Assembly (NCBI RefSeq): GCF_007988945.1
Contig: NZ_BJVC01000001.1
Coordinates: 868,001-932,000, forward strand
Direction: 5' to 3'
Source of the DNA: Swaminathania salitolerans
GTDB taxonomy: Bacteria > Pseudomonadota > Alphaproteobacteria > Acetobacterales > Acetobacteraceae
DNA length: 64,000 bases
In this document: positions 54,537 to 60,256 of the stretch, piece by piece
Layout of the letters: every line of letters begins with the position of its first letter
Position numbering within the stretch: the first letter of the stretch is position 1
Position numbers and translations under genes: made by a program
Notes under the pieces: generated by a model
The model's input: the letters and a program-made list of their open reading frames with translations, nothing else
Databases searched by the model: none
What the model was told of the DNA's origin: nothing

Positions 54537-54908
54537 TCAGGCAGCGGCGATGGATTTGAGCGGGAGAACAGGCCGGATCGTGTGCAGGGCGTGTTCGAGG
54601 CTGGGAAACAGGCCCAGCTCATATTCGCGGATATGATCGATGAGCACCCATCTCATGCCGCGTGGCTTGATCATATAGGCCGGATCCGCATTTTCGCGGA
54701 CCCATACGAGAATATGGGCGACCGTCTCTTCGCGTCCGTTGAGGCATTCCGTCTCTACATCGGCGTCGCACAGCCCCATCGCCAGGCCGGCCTGGAGCCA
54801 TTGCGAAAGATACTCGCGATGACGGGGCAGCACGTTGAAACGCAGTGGAATCACATTGCTGAGAGGTGCTGGAGTTTCGTGATTGGGAAACGGCAGCGTC
54901 TGGGCCAT
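54537..54908 (-). CDS. Small soluble protein of unknown function
   Basis: The 123-residue product has no signal peptide or membrane segment. It reads as an alpha/beta domain: VIPLRFNVLPRHREYLSQWL, GLAMGLCDADVETECLNG, VAHILVWVRENADPAYMI and RWVLIDHIREYELGLFPSLE. Acidic and Arg/His residues are spread evenly and there are two cysteines. AGGA lies eight bases before the ATG at 54908, better than ATGs at 54923 and 54938. I recognise no family. Codon usage looks native. Confidence 0.72.
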   Translation of the reverse strand: MAQTLPFPNHETPAPLSNVIPLRFNVLPRHREYLSQWLQAGLAMGLCDADVETECLNGREETVAHILVWVRENADPAYMIKPRGMRWVLIDHIREYELGLFPSLEHALHTIRPVLPLKSIAAA

Positions 54909-55095
54909 ACGTTGCGTCCTCATGTCTGGTTCGTTCATGAGGCTAGACGGCAGAACTGGCGCTTCTCAACGTAAAATTGCGTGTCTCGCCGCTGCGGAGC
55001 AATCGTAAACGGATGGTGTTGCCAAAAAGCAATGGTTCGTTTCGCCCGCGCTCATATGACGCAGGCGTAAGCATAATGGTCTTTTCTGGCAGTAA

Positions 55096-56019
55096 TCAGC
55101 GCTTCTGTCTGGCGTAAAGCGCCTTGGGCCAGCGTCTGTGAAGCCAGAGCCAGCTTCCCGGGATCTCGCGGATCCATTCCTCCATCTGATCGTTGAGCTG
55201 CTGCGTGAGCGCGCCGATCTCGTCCTGTCTCGGCGCCCGGGGATCGGGACGGAGGACCCTGCCCACCTCGAGATGAAGACGCGCAGGCCCGAGACGGACG
55301 ATACGCCCGGTCACGATGGGGCAGTCATAGCGATGGGCGAAGGTCGCCGCGGCCGAGGCCGTCATGGCAGGCAGATTGAAAAACCGGCACTCGATCCCGT
55401 CATTCATCTTCTGGTCACCCAGAATACCCAGATGATGCCCATGAGCCAGATGACGCAGCGCCTGACGGGCGCCCTTCGCGCCCTTGGCGAACATCGGCAC
55501 GTCTTCCCCCATGGCGCGTATGCGCAGGCGTCTGATCAGCCGGTCGATCAGCGGGTTTCCTGCCGCGCGGTAGAAGGAGGCGAAGGGCAGGCCGTACCGG
55601 GCAACCACAGGCGGCAGCATCTCCCAGTTGCCGATATGACCCGAGAAGAAGATGACGGGCCGGTTTTCCTCCCGGATCGCTTCCAGTACCGGGGCGCCAT
55701 CGATGCTCCAGCCCGGCCCCGAGGGTGTGTCCTGCTTCAGGCGGGAGAGGTGGCAGAACTCCCCGATCGTTCGTCCCAGATTATCCCAGACATCGCGGAC
55801 AATCCGCTTGCGGGCCGCTTCATCCAGCTTCGGCATGGCGAGGCCAAGATTCATGTCGGCCACATGCGAGACCGGCAGATGGGGGCCGATCGTGCGCGCA
55901 ACCCATCCTCCGAGATTCGAGGCCCAGACCGGTGGGAGGCAGGACAGGCAGGCGAGCAGGCCGCGCGCCACCGCATATTCGGCGTAATGGCGCAAGGCTG
56001 GGAGGTGTTTCTGGCTCAT
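55096..56019 (-). CDS. lpxL: Lipid A biosynthesis acyltransferase (LpxL/HtrB family)
   Basis: The 307-residue membrane-anchored acyltransferase adds a secondary acyl chain to Kdo-lipid A. The HX4E active site is FFSGHIGNWEM (His128, Glu133), followed by FYRAAGNPLIDRLIRRLR and LGILGDQKMNDGIECRFF. The N-terminal hydrophobic segment (about 18-40) anchors it to the inner membrane. It is last in the waaA-lpxK-lpxL operon, nine bases after lpxK. Confidence 0.9.
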   Translation of the reverse strand: MSQKHLPALRHYAEYAVARGLLACLSCLPPVWASNLGGWVARTIGPHLPVSHVADMNLGLAMPKLDEAARKRIVRDVWDNLGRTIGEFCHLSRLKQDTPSGPGWSIDGAPVLEAIREENRPVIFFSGHIGNWEMLPPVVARYGLPFASFYRAAGNPLIDRLIRRLRIRAMGEDVPMFAKGAKGARQALRHLAHGHHLGILGDQKMNDGIECRFFNLPAMTASAAATFAHRYDCPIVTGRIVRLGPARLHLEVGRVLRPDPRAPRQDEIGALTQQLNDQMEEWIREIPGSWLWLHRRWPKALYARQKR

Positions 56020-56028
56020 CGGGGGGAT

Positions 56029-57021
56029 CTACTGCGTCAGGCCGAGACGGTCCAGAAGGCGCTCGGGCGCTTGCGGGTCCGACCAGAGAAGTTCGACATC
56101 GATGGCAATCACGTCGCTTCTGAGCCAGTCGGGCAATTTGACGAGGTCCTTGCGGGTCGTCACGAGCGAGATGCCGGGTTGTCTGGCAAGGGCGGAGAGC
56201 CGACGGCAGTCACGTTCGCTGTACGTGTGATGATCGGGGAAAGAGAGCGTCCTCACCGGGGTTACGCCTGCCTCGATCAGCATATCGAAAAACTTCTGCG
56301 GGCGTCCGATTCCCGCAAAAGCGATGACCTGACGCCCGGGCAGACGCCTTATCGTGGCTTCGGGGATGAGGCGTGCGGCAAGAAAGGGGAGGTTTTCCGG
56401 CAGGCGTGCTGCCATGCCGGTCTCGTCGCGGCCGATCAGGATGATGGCATCGGCCCGGGCGAATCCCTGGTTTGCAGGCTCGCGCAAAGGGCCGGCCGGA
56501 AAAACGCGCCCGTTACCGAGCCCCACACCGCCATCGACGGTCACGAGGCGCAGATCCTGATGCAGGGTCAGGTTTTGCAGGCCGTCATCCATCAGCAGGC
56601 ATCCGGCTCCGGCTTCCCGGGCGAGCCGCGCCGTCGCCGCACGATCGGCCCCGATCCAGACAGGGAAATCCTGTGCGAGCATGAGCGGTTCGTCCCCGAC
56701 ATCCCGGGCGTCATGATGCTGCGTATCGACACGGATCGGCCCTGTCAGGCGTCCTCCATAGCCGCGGCTCAGAATGTGCGGCCGCGCGCCGCGCGCTGCG
56801 AGGCGGGTGGCGAGATCGCGCACGAGAATGGTCTTTCCCGTGCCGCCCATGCTCAGATTCCCGCAACACAGCACCGGGATGTCGACGCGCGCGGTGGTGC
56901 TGCGCAGGCGACGGAGGGCAGCAGCGGCGCCGAATGCCCATGAAAAAGGAAGAAGGACCCGCGCCGGCCATGGCAGGGTGCTGCGACGCCAGAACTGCGG
57001 GGCTTCGCGTGTTATGCGCAT
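56029..57021 (-). CDS. lpxK: Tetraacyldisaccharide 4'-kinase
   Basis: The 330-residue P-loop kinase phosphorylates lipid A disaccharide. Walker A is VLCCGNLSMGGTGKT near residue 50-64; ILSRGYGGRL, DEPLMLA, LLMDDGLQNLTLHQDL and FPDHHTYSERD are further family motifs. An N-terminal hydrophobic helix (20-38) associates with the membrane. It overlaps the waaA stop by 10 bases, implying coupled translation. Confidence 0.94.
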   Translation of the reverse strand: MRITREAPQFWRRSTLPWPARVLLPFSWAFGAAAALRRLRSTTARVDIPVLCCGNLSMGGTGKTILVRDLATRLAARGARPHILSRGYGGRLTGPIRVDTQHHDARDVGDEPLMLAQDFPVWIGADRAATARLAREAGAGCLLMDDGLQNLTLHQDLRLVTVDGGVGLGNGRVFPAGPLREPANQGFARADAIILIGRDETGMAARLPENLPFLAARLIPEATIRRLPGRQVIAFAGIGRPQKFFDMLIEAGVTPVRTLSFPDHHTYSERDCRRLSALARQPGISLVTTRKDLVKLPDWLRSDVIAIDVELLWSDPQAPERLLDRLGLTQ

Positions 57022-58985
57022 GACAGCGCGTCAAGTCGGGCGAGGAGCGTCTCGGGCGGCATCTCATCGCTCTGGATTGCGGCGCGGGCCATGCGAGCCT
57101 GCTCTTTCCTCATCTCGGGGTTTTTCACGCTTTCCACGATCCAACCTGCCAGTTCATCTGCATCGTGTATAGTCGTTACATGGTCGCGGAGTTGCGCAAA
57201 GGCAGGGCCGAAATTGTCGTGCCAGGGCCCGGTCGCTATCGCGGTATCGAGTCTCACGGCCTCGAACGGATTATGACCCCCTCCCGGCGGGAGGAGGGAA
57301 TTGCCGATGAAGGCGCATTGCGCCAGCCGGTAGAAAAGCCCCAGCTCGCCGAGCGTGTCGGCGATCCAGACCGGGTCCGTGGCGGCGGGATCGGCGCGCT
57401 CCGACCGGCGCGGCGGTTCGGGCCGGGCAAGACGTGCGATCGCGGCACCGCGCACCGGATGACGCGGAACGAGAATGGCGAGAAGGTCGGGGATGACGCG
57501 CCGGGCCTGGCTCGCCGCCTCGAGAACGATCTCGTCCTCCCCCGGATGGGTGGACGCGGCGAGGAAGACGGGACGATGCCCGATACAGGCACGCAGCCGC
57601 TCGAGCTCGACCGCGTCGCATCCGGGAGGCGGTGCATTCTGTTTCAGATCGCCATGGGTTTCGACATCGCGCACGCCCAGAGCGCGAAAACGGTGCGCAT
57701 CGTCGCTGCCTCGGGCGGCGACGAGGGCAAGCCGCTCGAAAAGGGGACCTGCAAGGAAGGAGAGGTGCTTCCACCGGCGCCAGGATCGCTCCGACAGACG
57801 CGCATTCAGGACCGCGACCGGAATGGCGCGGCGCGCGCATTGCCTGAGCATGCCCGGCCAGAGCTCGCTATCGGTCAGAAGGAGCATGCCCGGCGACCAG
57901 TGATCGAGAAAGCGGCGGGTCCAGTATGCGACGTCATAGGGGATGAACTGGTGCATGACCGTGCCCCGGGTGGCCCGGGTGCCGCTGGCATCCGGGGATT
58001 CGTCCTGATCCCGTGCGGAAATGAAGCGCGCGAGGATTTCGGCGCCGCCGGTCGTGGCACTGGTCACCAGGATATGACGCGCGGGATGACGCAGGGACAT
58101 CGCCTCGATCAGAGGCAGGACGGAGCGGGTCTCTCCGACGCTCGCGGCATGGATCCAGACGAGCTCGCCGGGCGGACGCCGGATCGTTGCGCGACCGCGC
58201 CGCTCGCCGAGACGGCTGCGGATTTCCTTGCCGCGACGGAGCCTGTGGAGACTCATCAGACGCAGGGCCGGAACGAGTGCGAGCCCGAGCCCTTCCCAGA
58301 TCCTGTCCGGGAGCGTCGCCCTGCCCAGACGGTGCCAGTGCCTTGCCCGGGCGGAGAGCGCGTTGAGCCGGGACGTGATCGTCTCGCTCGTGCTCCCCTC
58401 CGGGACGGGAGGGCCATAAAGAATTACGCCGCGCCCCCATGGGAGCGGCAACGACAGGCCGTCCCAGCTCGGAAGACGCAACGCCGTCGTCCACGCCCCC
58501 AGAGGGACCAGAGGCTTTCCGGTGAGGCGCAGCAATCCTTCCGTTCCGGGCTGGGCGATCTCGGCCGGGCCTCTCGGGCCATCCGGGGTGATGGCAAAGA
58601 CCGAACCCCTTTGCAGTTCGAGGCAGGCCCGTCTGAAGGCACGGCTGCCGCCCTTGTTCTTGCCTTTACGGTCGCTCGACCCCTCGATTCCCTCAATCCC
58701 CCACGGGGCTACGAGATCGCTGATGAAGCGGCCATCGCGGTTCCGGCTGATCATGACCTTGATGACCAGGGTCGGGTTCTTGTTGCGCGCCCAGCTGCAA
58801 AGCGCGGGCAGGAGCAGGAGCGAGCGATGCCAGGCGGCGACGATCGCCCCCTGACCGGCACGGTCCCCGGTCTGCGTCAGGATGGGCACACTCGTCGCGG
58901 CGCCCGAGATCGTCCAGCGCGTCGTATGCAGGGCGAGGCCCAGATAGGCCCGGGCCAGAGACCGCAGCGCTGTCCGGAGAGTCAT
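57012..58985 (-). CDS. waaA: Fusion of DUF374 acyltransferase-like domain with Kdo transferase WaaA
   Basis: This 657-residue frame joins two proteins that are normally separate neighbours. Residues 1-220 match DUF374 (lysophospholipid acyltransferase-like): AAWHRSLLLLPAL, VMISRNRDGRFIS, FAITPDGPRGPAEIAQPG and LTGKPLVPLG. Residues about 227-657 are WaaA/KdtA: KEIRSRLGERRG, WIHAASVGETRSVLPLIEA with the catalytic Glu, LVTSATTGGAEI, LLTDSELWPGML, LNARLSERS, GDLKQNAPPP, ASTHPGEDE and GGGHNPFEAVRL. WaaA transfers Kdo from CMP-Kdo to lipid IVA. No stop or frameshift separates them and the linker is short. The ATG at 58985 matches the DUF374 start. Confidence 0.9.
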   Translation of the reverse strand: MTLRTALRSLARAYLGLALHTTRWTISGAATSVPILTQTGDRAGQGAIVAAWHRSLLLLPALCSWARNKNPTLVIKVMISRNRDGRFISDLVAPWGIEGIEGSSDRKGKNKGGSRAFRRACLELQRGSVFAITPDGPRGPAEIAQPGTEGLLRLTGKPLVPLGAWTTALRLPSWDGLSLPLPWGRGVILYGPPVPEGSTSETITSRLNALSARARHWHRLGRATLPDRIWEGLGLALVPALRLMSLHRLRRGKEIRSRLGERRGRATIRRPPGELVWIHAASVGETRSVLPLIEAMSLRHPARHILVTSATTGGAEILARFISARDQDESPDASGTRATRGTVMHQFIPYDVAYWTRRFLDHWSPGMLLLTDSELWPGMLRQCARRAIPVAVLNARLSERSWRRWKHLSFLAGPLFERLALVAARGSDDAHRFRALGVRDVETHGDLKQNAPPPGCDAVELERLRACIGHRPVFLAASTHPGEDEIVLEAASQARRVIPDLLAILVPRHPVRGAAIARLARPEPPRRSERADPAATDPVWIADTLGELGLFYRLAQCAFIGNSLLPPGGGHNPFEAVRLDTAIATGPWHDNFGPAFAQLRDHVTTIHDADELAGWIVESVKNPEMRKEQARMARAAIQSDEMPPETLLARLDALSCA

Positions 58986-59133
58986 CGGAAACCCGCTGCA
59001 GGGCGATCTGCGATGGGGAGAACTGCGGCGAGCGGGCACATACCGCGCGGGTAGCATGTCCGGGGCGGTATGGCAAAAAGCCGCGCATCGAGGGGAGGGC
59101 GCGCCCTCGGGATGCACGCCCGACCGAAGGCGA

Positions 59134-60021
59134 TCAGCGGCTCATGAGAACCGTGATCGTCGCGTTCTCGAGCACATGGCGGGTCGCGCCGCCGAGAATC
59201 ATCTGGCGCAGTCTGGAATGCGAATAGGCGCCCATCGAGAGCATGTCCGCGCCGAAATCGCTGCAGGCCTGAAGGATCCCCGCGCCGATATTGCGATCGA
59301 TGGCGTGAAAGCGCCGTATCTCGGCCTCGACGCCGTGAAGTCTGAGATAGTCCTGTACCGTTTCCGCCTCGGGGCCGCGGCGATGATAATCGACACTCGC
59401 GAGAATCTGGACCGCCTCCGCCTTGCGGGCGAACGGGATCGCGCCGCGAAGGGCGGACCCTGCCTCCGCCGTCCCGTTCCAGGCGATGCAGAGCCGTCGC
59501 CCCGCGCTCTCGGGCGGGGTGGGCGGGGCGATCACGAGCGGACAGCCGCTGTCGTACAGCACGGCATGCAGAACCTCAGAGGCACGCGCATTGTCGCTTA
59601 CCCCGAGATGGGGCATCAGGGTCAGGTCCGACAGGCGCGCGCGCCAGGTGACGGCCTCATGTTCGGAGCCGGTGAGGAATTCGAGCGAGGCGCTGAGGCG
59701 GGATTGCGCGAGAGGATCCTCTTCCAGAAAACCGTGTTTGGGAACGATATCGTTCTCGCGAACGAAAGCGTCGAATTTCAGCCTTACCTGTAGCATCCTG
59801 CGATGCGCCTCATGTTCGGCAGCCTCCATCATCTCGCCGATCATCGCGCTGGAGAGGCCTTCGCCTGTCAGGGCGGCCATCTCGTTCGGGTCGTCCCCGA
59901 CCATGACCGTCGAGAGATGGGCGTTGAAAGCGCGGGCGTGGAGCAGGCCCACGCGCAGGACAGCGTCGATATTGCCCGCCCCGTTGAGCGGAACGAGGAT
60001 GTTTCTGACGTCGTTGGCCAT
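59134..60021 (-). CDS. Universal stress protein with two Usp domains
   Basis: The 295-residue protein contains two tandem Usp domains. The first begins NILVPLNGAGNIDAVLRVG; the second begins RRLCIAWNGTAEAGSALRGA and ends with the ATP-binding consensus GADMLSMGAYSHSRLRQMILGG. AAGGAG sits six bases before the ATG, an ideal site, so the 22-residue longer frame is rejected. Such tandem Usp proteins respond to nutrient, oxidative or acid stress. The gene stands alone; no regulator is adjacent. Confidence 0.92.
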   Translation of the reverse strand: MANDVRNILVPLNGAGNIDAVLRVGLLHARAFNAHLSTVMVGDDPNEMAALTGEGLSSAMIGEMMEAAEHEAHRRMLQVRLKFDAFVRENDIVPKHGFLEEDPLAQSRLSASLEFLTGSEHEAVTWRARLSDLTLMPHLGVSDNARASEVLHAVLYDSGCPLVIAPPTPPESAGRRLCIAWNGTAEAGSALRGAIPFARKAEAVQILASVDYHRRGPEAETVQDYLRLHGVEAEIRRFHAIDRNIGAGILQACSDFGADMLSMGAYSHSRLRQMILGGATRHVLENATITVLMSR

Positions 60022-60256
60022 GGTGATCTCCTTGGGTTCCGCCGCGGATCCTGCTGCGCCTCTGCATGGAACGGCCGTGGCAAACACGGGTTCGACAGGG
60101 CGCAGAAGCGGCGCATGAGCGACGCGGGTGCAGTGGAGCAGAACCCGCGGGATACAGGCAAGAGAGAACCGGAAACCGTCCGACCCCGGACAGTTCCGCC
60201 CGGCCGGTCAGGCTCGGTCGGCCCTGCTTGTGTCCTTTCCGGGGTTCCGGCCGTGA

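Follow-up and report, generated by a model that had tools for sequence, protein, structure and literature searches.

Known enzymes and lipid A structures

LpxJ, for which DUF374 was the earlier name, belongs to the late acyltransferases of lipid A, and its homologues are DUF374 members (passages of PMC6148475). It adds a secondary chain onto the 3' primary acyl group of lipid A, and the LpxJ enzymes differ from one another in substrate and in order of action (passages of PMC6148475 and PMC6286764). According to the same passages, Kdo is not required by the LpxJ enzymes of H. pylori, C. jejuni and W. succinogenes, a test that did not include the R. typhi enzyme, and H. pylori LpxJ is also independent of the LpxL chain. 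Mutations of R. typhi LpxJ indicate that W60, H61, D86, D132, W172 and D173 are critical and that H84 is dispensable; H61 is the proposed catalytic base and D132 the proposed partner of this histidine (passages of PMC6148475). WaaA adds Kdo at the 6' hydroxyl group of the same distal sugar and accepts substrates with 3 to 6 acyl chains, and the roles of the catalytic and binding residues of A. aeolicus WaaA have been described (passages of PMC6286764).

The known lipid A of the Acetobacteraceae is unusual in that it contains GlcN3N as the distal sugar, and Ko. As described in passages of PMC8036547, phosphate was not detected in Granulibacter lipid A, which carries one secondary chain on the distal GlcN3N, the sugar that also carries Ko at position 6. 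This chain is drawn at N-3, with the amide chains not precisely assignable between the amino groups. The lipid A of A. pasteurianus is reported in the same source to be hexa-acylated, with Ko.

The preliminary description of this locus treated the role of DUF374 as unknown, a view superseded by the work on LpxJ as a lipid A 3'-secondary acyltransferase in the cited passages of PMC6148475 and PMC6286764. The function of DUF374 is already known from other bacteria, and the fusion described here reveals no new one. In a passage of PMC3035290, DUF374 appears as a single entry of an annotation list. The cited passages on LpxJ mention no fusion, the word 'fusion' does not occur in PMC6148475, and no paper describing an LpxJ-WaaA fusion was found among the titles and abstract openings listed in searches of the open-licence PMC literature.

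Architecture of the fusion gene

The window analysed is a 64,000-nucleotide stretch of DNA with a G+C content of 64.1%, from a genome of 2.92 Mb in 9 contigs. The fusion gene, its parts and the two genes that follow it are listed below.

57012..58985, minus strand: lpxJ-waaA fusion gene, 657 amino acids, stop codon included in the coordinates; assigned from the ORF and from homologues of the same architecture
58371..58985, minus strand: LpxJ (DUF374) half, residues 1-205, with the Pfam core at residues 73-141
58296..58385, minus strand: linker, residues 201-230, weakly conserved; the site where separate waaA genes begin
57015..58310, minus strand: WaaA (Kdo transferase, GT-B) half, residues 226-657
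56029..57021, minus strand: lpxK, tetraacyldisaccharide 4'-kinase (PF02606, E 5.1e-91; TIGR00682 over its cut-off)
55096..56019, minus strand: LpxL-type late acyltransferase gene (PF03279, E 9.1e-43)

The preliminary description held that a single uninterrupted frame joins DUF374 to WaaA, and the ORF agrees with this. It runs on the minus strand from ATG at 58985 to the stop codon at 57012, encodes 657 amino acids with zero internal stops, and contains both Pfam domains above their cut-offs. DUF374 (PF04028) is matched at residues 73-141 with an E value of 9.5e-19 and a score of 67.2 bits, as compared with the gathering score of 26.8, and Glycos_transf_N (PF04413) is matched at residues 258-449 with an E value of 7.1e-52 and a score of 176 bits, as compared with 23.9. 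Five NCBIfam WaaA models match residues 230-641 (best E 2.6e-90), all of them under their own curated cut-offs (best score 303.3 versus 617). An upstream GTG at 59117 is a possible alternative start, giving 701 amino acids; ATG at 58985 is the start that fits the alignment of the homologues. A profile search of the genome gives one DUF374 match, which is the fusion itself.

The end of the fusion gene overlaps the following gene, lpxK, by 10 bases, and the LpxL-type gene, which gives the only PF03279 match in the genome, lies 9 bases beyond lpxK. In the family, lpxK directly follows in 33 of the 34 fused loci and is next in 39 of the 41 split loci defined below.

Active-site residues and structure of the two halves

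The positions of the LpxJ half that correspond to the critical residues of R. typhi LpxJ, and two positions of the WaaA half, are listed below. The R. typhi equivalences were set by motif order and rough spacing, and the spacing between the motifs differs.

58827..58832, minus strand: W52-H53, equivalent to R. typhi W60-H61; kept in 34/34 fused and 40/41 split rows, the remaining row being a gap
58734..58736, minus strand: D84, equivalent to R. typhi D86; 34/34 fused and 39/41 split rows (one E, one gap)
58581..58583, minus strand: D135 in TPDGPRGP, equivalent to R. typhi D132; 34/34 fused and 41/41 split rows
58461..58466, minus strand: W174-D175, equivalent to R. typhi W172-D173; 34/34 fused and 41/41 split rows
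58131..58133, minus strand: E285, equivalent to A. aeolicus WaaA E31 (proposed catalytic base); E in 90/90 WaaA rows
57870..57872, minus strand: D372, equivalent to A. aeolicus WaaA E98; an acid position, E in 80/90 rows and D in 10/90

In the DUF374 alignment, all six positions that match the critical LpxJ residues are kept in all 34 fusions. The preliminary description referred to an 'HX-motif' in this half. The classical form of it, HX4D/E, does not apply: no D or E stands five residues past H53 in any of the 16 fusions aligned for it. LpxJ likewise lacks a classical HX4D/E motif, and its proposed pair of a histidine and a distant aspartate has both residues present in the fusion. From the motif order, and from the published DUF374 membership of the LpxJ homologues, the DUF374 half is best read as the equivalent of LpxJ. 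As compared with LpxJ of Helicobacter, Campylobacter, Wolinella and Rickettsia, it contains the same PF04028 domain, and the order of the six residues tested by mutation is unchanged, but it is joined as an N-terminal half to a Kdo transferase and has asparagine at the H84 position. This position, residue 82 (58740..58742), is N in 31 of the 34 fused rows and H in 37 of the 41 split rows. The predicted structure of the DUF374 half has a mean pLDDT of 44.7 and does not provide a reliable model for judging whether it has an LPLAT-type fold.

For the WaaA half, residues S282, G284, E285, K448, P507, R508, N572 and E575 are identical in all 90 WaaA rows and correspond, in a profile alignment to 2xci, to S28, G30, E31, K162, P211, R212, N273 and E276 of A. 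aeolicus WaaA. Aspartate at the E98 position is found in ten rows, every one of them fused (10/34), including that of the window gene; the difference between D and E at this position probably reflects ancestry. From residue 261 onward, the ten-residue block means of pLDDT for the model of the WaaA half are 60-96. The nearest solved structure is that of A. aeolicus WaaA (2xci), with a Z score of 31.3 and an rmsd of 5.8 over 350 residues, and the WaaA half is accordingly modelled with a GT-B fold. This fold is common to the fusion and to WaaA/KdtA of A. aeolicus (2XCI/2XCU) and A. baumannii (C-terminal domain, 4BFC), whereas the fusion has an extra N-terminal acyltransferase of about 200 residues.

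Distribution of fused, split and DUF374-less forms

Among 299 genomes of the same family, probably the Acetobacteraceae, 246 contain a DUF374 match and 281 match the fusion protein somewhere, at least 32 of them with one full-length open match. The comparison of fused with split forms that the preliminary description had proposed was carried out within this family, on 90 loci classified by script (30 fused loci and 60 further regions, each genus contributing one to four of the latter). Thirty-four of these loci are fused, 41 are split, with DUF374 beside waaA on the same strand, and 15 have no DUF374 beside waaA. The preliminary description is right for the family in that DUF374 and waaA often occur as neighbouring genes of their own (41 of the 90 loci). 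As compared with the split pairs of the same family, the fusion has the same two domains in the same order and on the same strand, but the pairs consist of two ORFs, which often overlap.

A sequencing artefact, chance or a local assembly error was considered as the source of the open frame and is excluded, because the same open architecture is present in at least 34 of the 299 family genomes, a lower bound, as the reading at sequence level covered part of the 299. Two single cases concern sequence quality. Genome G246 reads as split because it differs by one base from the closely similar G214 (14 mismatches in about 1872 bases overall), and this difference could equally be a true mutation or an error in the sequence. 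The fusion of genome G215 (L071) is given little weight, because its linker resembles an out-of-frame read.

Thirteen of the 15 loci without an adjacent DUF374 are from genomes without any DUF374 match; in the other two (G181 and G170), DUF374 lies elsewhere in the genome. Ten loci (L064-L067, L076, L077, L089, L090, L095 and L113) come from the sampled genomes of g73, g60, g101, g32 and g61, genera close to the fused clade; these genomes lack any DUF374 match and have a stand-alone WaaA before lpxK. The DUF374-less genomes of these five genera are predicted to have lipid A without the 3'-secondary chain. No clear sign of an excess of PF03279 compensating for the loss of DUF374 is seen in the 13 DUF374-less genomes: tallied by eye, they contain one PF03279 match in 10 and two in 3, and the 34 fused genomes contain one in 21, two in 11 and three in 2. 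The activity of DUF374 is dispensable in the family, because 13 relatives are without DUF374 and have no clear excess of LpxL-type genes. A further locus, L132:3485-4695 (minus strand) of the 1.7-Mb genome G209 (g30), contains a waaA match in two adjoining pieces, and DUF374 was not found beside it; it lies outside the 90 loci counted. The six other g30 loci examined are all fused.

In a sample of 385 genomes of the class, 295 match the fusion profile at an E value of 1e-85. Among the matches listed (to about 1e-130), 16 rows besides that of the window span both halves, and none of them is an open fusion: each contains one or two internal stops and is most simply read as a pair of separate in-frame neighbours. 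In a phylum sample of 299 genomes, 12 pass an E value of 1e-135. Five of these extend over both halves: the row of the window itself, three rows that have a single internal stop, and G897. Fusions weaker than these E thresholds would escape detection in both scans. G897, from another family of the same class, contains an open fusion (L131:1456-3498, plus strand) of 680 amino acids with both Pfam domains above their cut-offs, which is likewise under all five NCBIfam WaaA cut-offs. It has ADVP in place of PDGP and WS in place of WD, and its DUF374 half perhaps represents a divergent subtype with another active site or acceptor.

A scan of named genomes with patterns of the window's protein, which have a short reach, gave eight loci matching the WaaA half or an adjoining short stretch, with no nearby DUF374 at an E value of 1e-4. 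No fusion was found among 72,556 plasmid records, in which 34 matches were obtained, none covering 80% of the query. A scan of viral contigs gave three loci, one of which (L133) has a DUF374 ORF followed by the beginning of a waaA gene in another frame.

Origin of the fusion

In 23 of the 41 split pairs, the waaA start is at -3 from the last base of the DUF374 stop codon (ATGA or GTGA overlap). One base is shared in 4 pairs, waaA follows directly in 2, and the start is elsewhere or was not found in 12. These counts used the nearest possible waaA start, a choice that leans towards overlap. In four of the 41 split loci (L060-L063), the two ORFs share one reading frame and are separated by a stop. 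Because the split pairs have such stop/start overlaps or in-frame stops, a small indel or a lost stop would be enough to join the two genes.

In a tree of the 90 WaaA halves, 26 core fusions are placed on one side of a branch, against the split rows and the other fusions, with a weak support of 44. The core fusions span ten genera (g1, g85, g22, g25, g37, g79, g46, g48, g54 and g30), and further fusions are present in g42 (5 of 6 loci), g44, g71 and g43, the last two represented by one genome each. The fused and split states alone require six changes on this tree. An AU test on this tree, picked after the tree was seen, rejects a single origin of all 34 fusions (p 5.1e-5). The fusion arose more than once, as the rejection of one origin indicates. 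The DUF374-less genera g101, g32 and g61 are placed beside fused g54 with a branch support of 99 (SH-aLRT). This grouping with a fused genus suggests that these three genera descend from an ancestor with the fusion and have lost its LpxJ half.

Selection on the two halves

The dN/dS ratios (Nei-Gojobori) over 11 pairs of fused relatives, which exclude the window's own gene and in several of which the synonymous sites are near saturation, are 0.04-0.39 for the DUF374 half and 0.05-0.40 for the WaaA half, and the ratio is lower for DUF374 than for WaaA in 8 of the 11 pairs. These ratios indicate that both halves are under purifying selection in these relatives.

Function of the fusion protein

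The fusion is best explained as a bifunctional LpxJ-WaaA enzyme, both halves of which would modify the same distal sugar of a single lipid A precursor. We assign a probability of roughly 0.73 to this reading. In its favour are the single frame, the conservation of the active-site residues of both halves, the dN/dS ratios, the adjacent lpxK gene, and the single DUF374 and PF03279 matches of the genome. Weighing against it are the differing motif spacing and low pLDDT of the DUF374 half, the WaaA scores under the NCBIfam cut-offs and the 13 DUF374-less relatives, and the Granulibacter structure leaves the 3' position unsettled. The LpxJ half would add the 3'-secondary acyl chain, the WaaA half would add a sugar at the 6' position of the same distal sugar, and the adjacent LpxL-type enzyme would add the 2'-secondary chain. 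The most likely effect of fusion is that two enzymes whose genes already overlapped as neighbours are held at a 1:1 ratio and at the same place in the membrane. The lipid A structures of Granulibacter and A. pasteurianus are compatible with such a bifunctional enzyme. We infer from the sequence the presence of both activities in the fusion protein, their order and any channelling or coupling. Because the three epsilonproteobacterial LpxJ enzymes are independent of Kdo and WaaA tolerates 3 to 6 chains, the two halves would share a substrate without a forced order.

The preliminary description proposed that DUF374 acts on or near Kdo-lipid A intermediates. It is right to connect the domain with lipid A and Kdo, but the use of Kdo-lipid A as a substrate does not follow from the fusion, because three epsilonproteobacterial LpxJ enzymes needed no Kdo. 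A stronger proposal is that 3'-acylation and 6' sugar transfer are coupled on one bound precursor, such that only sugar-bearing, 3'-acylated lipid A is released. We regard this coupling as rather unlikely. If it is true, the order would be fixed, unlike that in E. coli, and the repeated origin of the fusion and its retention under selection would be explained.

It is quite unlikely that the DUF374 half, though active, acylates a different acceptor (a lysophospholipid, for example, or another chain of lipid A) and became fused to WaaA only because the two genes were neighbours. LpxJ enzymes do differ in substrate and order, the known lipid A of the Acetobacteraceae is unusual (GlcN3N as the distal sugar, Ko and, in Granulibacter, no detected phosphate; passages of PMC8036547), and phmmer gives one weak match of the DUF374 half to the PlsC-type phospholipid acyltransferase 5kym (E 0.0088), which fits the broad superfamily only. 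However, 34/34 fusions retain the full set of six residues linked to 3'-acylation in LpxJ, and the gene is grouped with lpxK and the LpxL-type gene. The position of the Granulibacter secondary chain on the distal sugar, drawn at N-3 (PMC8036547, same passages), also speaks against another acceptor, but helps little, because the amide chains are not precisely assigned. That the DUF374 half has no catalytic activity, and instead tethers WaaA to the membrane or regulates it, is hardly probable at all: the 13 relatives that have WaaA without any DUF374 match would be in line with such a role, but the six critical residues are kept in every one of the 34 fusions and the constraint on the DUF374 half is about equal to that on WaaA in the 11 pairs. 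A silent DUF374 half could apply to the L131 fusion, with its ADVP for PDGP and WS for WD.

One frame might also yield two working proteins, either by proteolysis in the linker or from an internal start near codon 225, the region in which the start of separate waaA genes usually falls. In most of the 11 pairs, conservation is lower in the linker than in each of the two halves, and an in-frame ATG is present at codon 244 in 16 of the 34 fusions, including the window gene. This codon is, however, past the usual start of separate waaA genes, and no Shine-Dalgarno-like run is flagged before it in the window gene. Four of the 34 fusions (L041, L044, L055 and L056) contain no ATG or GTG in codons 205-258, TTG not being counted. 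Production of two proteins is therefore judged very unlikely, and the sequence evidence favours one polypeptide.

With the bifunctional LpxJ-WaaA enzyme as the preferred reading, two late steps of lipid A assembly would be joined in one protein. This joining occurred repeatedly in evolution, and the family concerned has a known lipid A of unusual chemistry that is stable to acid. New here are the architecture and its recurrence, the lack of an LpxJ half in some of the related genera, and the tests made possible by these findings. With the fusion, it can be cleanly tested whether the LpxJ step precedes or follows Kdo transfer, and the series of fused, split and DUF374-less forms predicts which species should be without a 3'-secondary acyl chain.

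Flanking genes

A 133-aa ORF (54537..54938, minus strand) lies downstream of the LpxL-type gene on the same strand. It has no Pfam or NCBIfam match at an E value of 0.001, and a search of 24 other genomes gave homologues with 46-56% identity in three, each of them from the same family; its predicted product is an unnamed conserved protein. Upstream of the fusion gene and on the same strand is a universal stress protein-like gene (59134..60027, minus strand), with PF00582 at residues 180-296.
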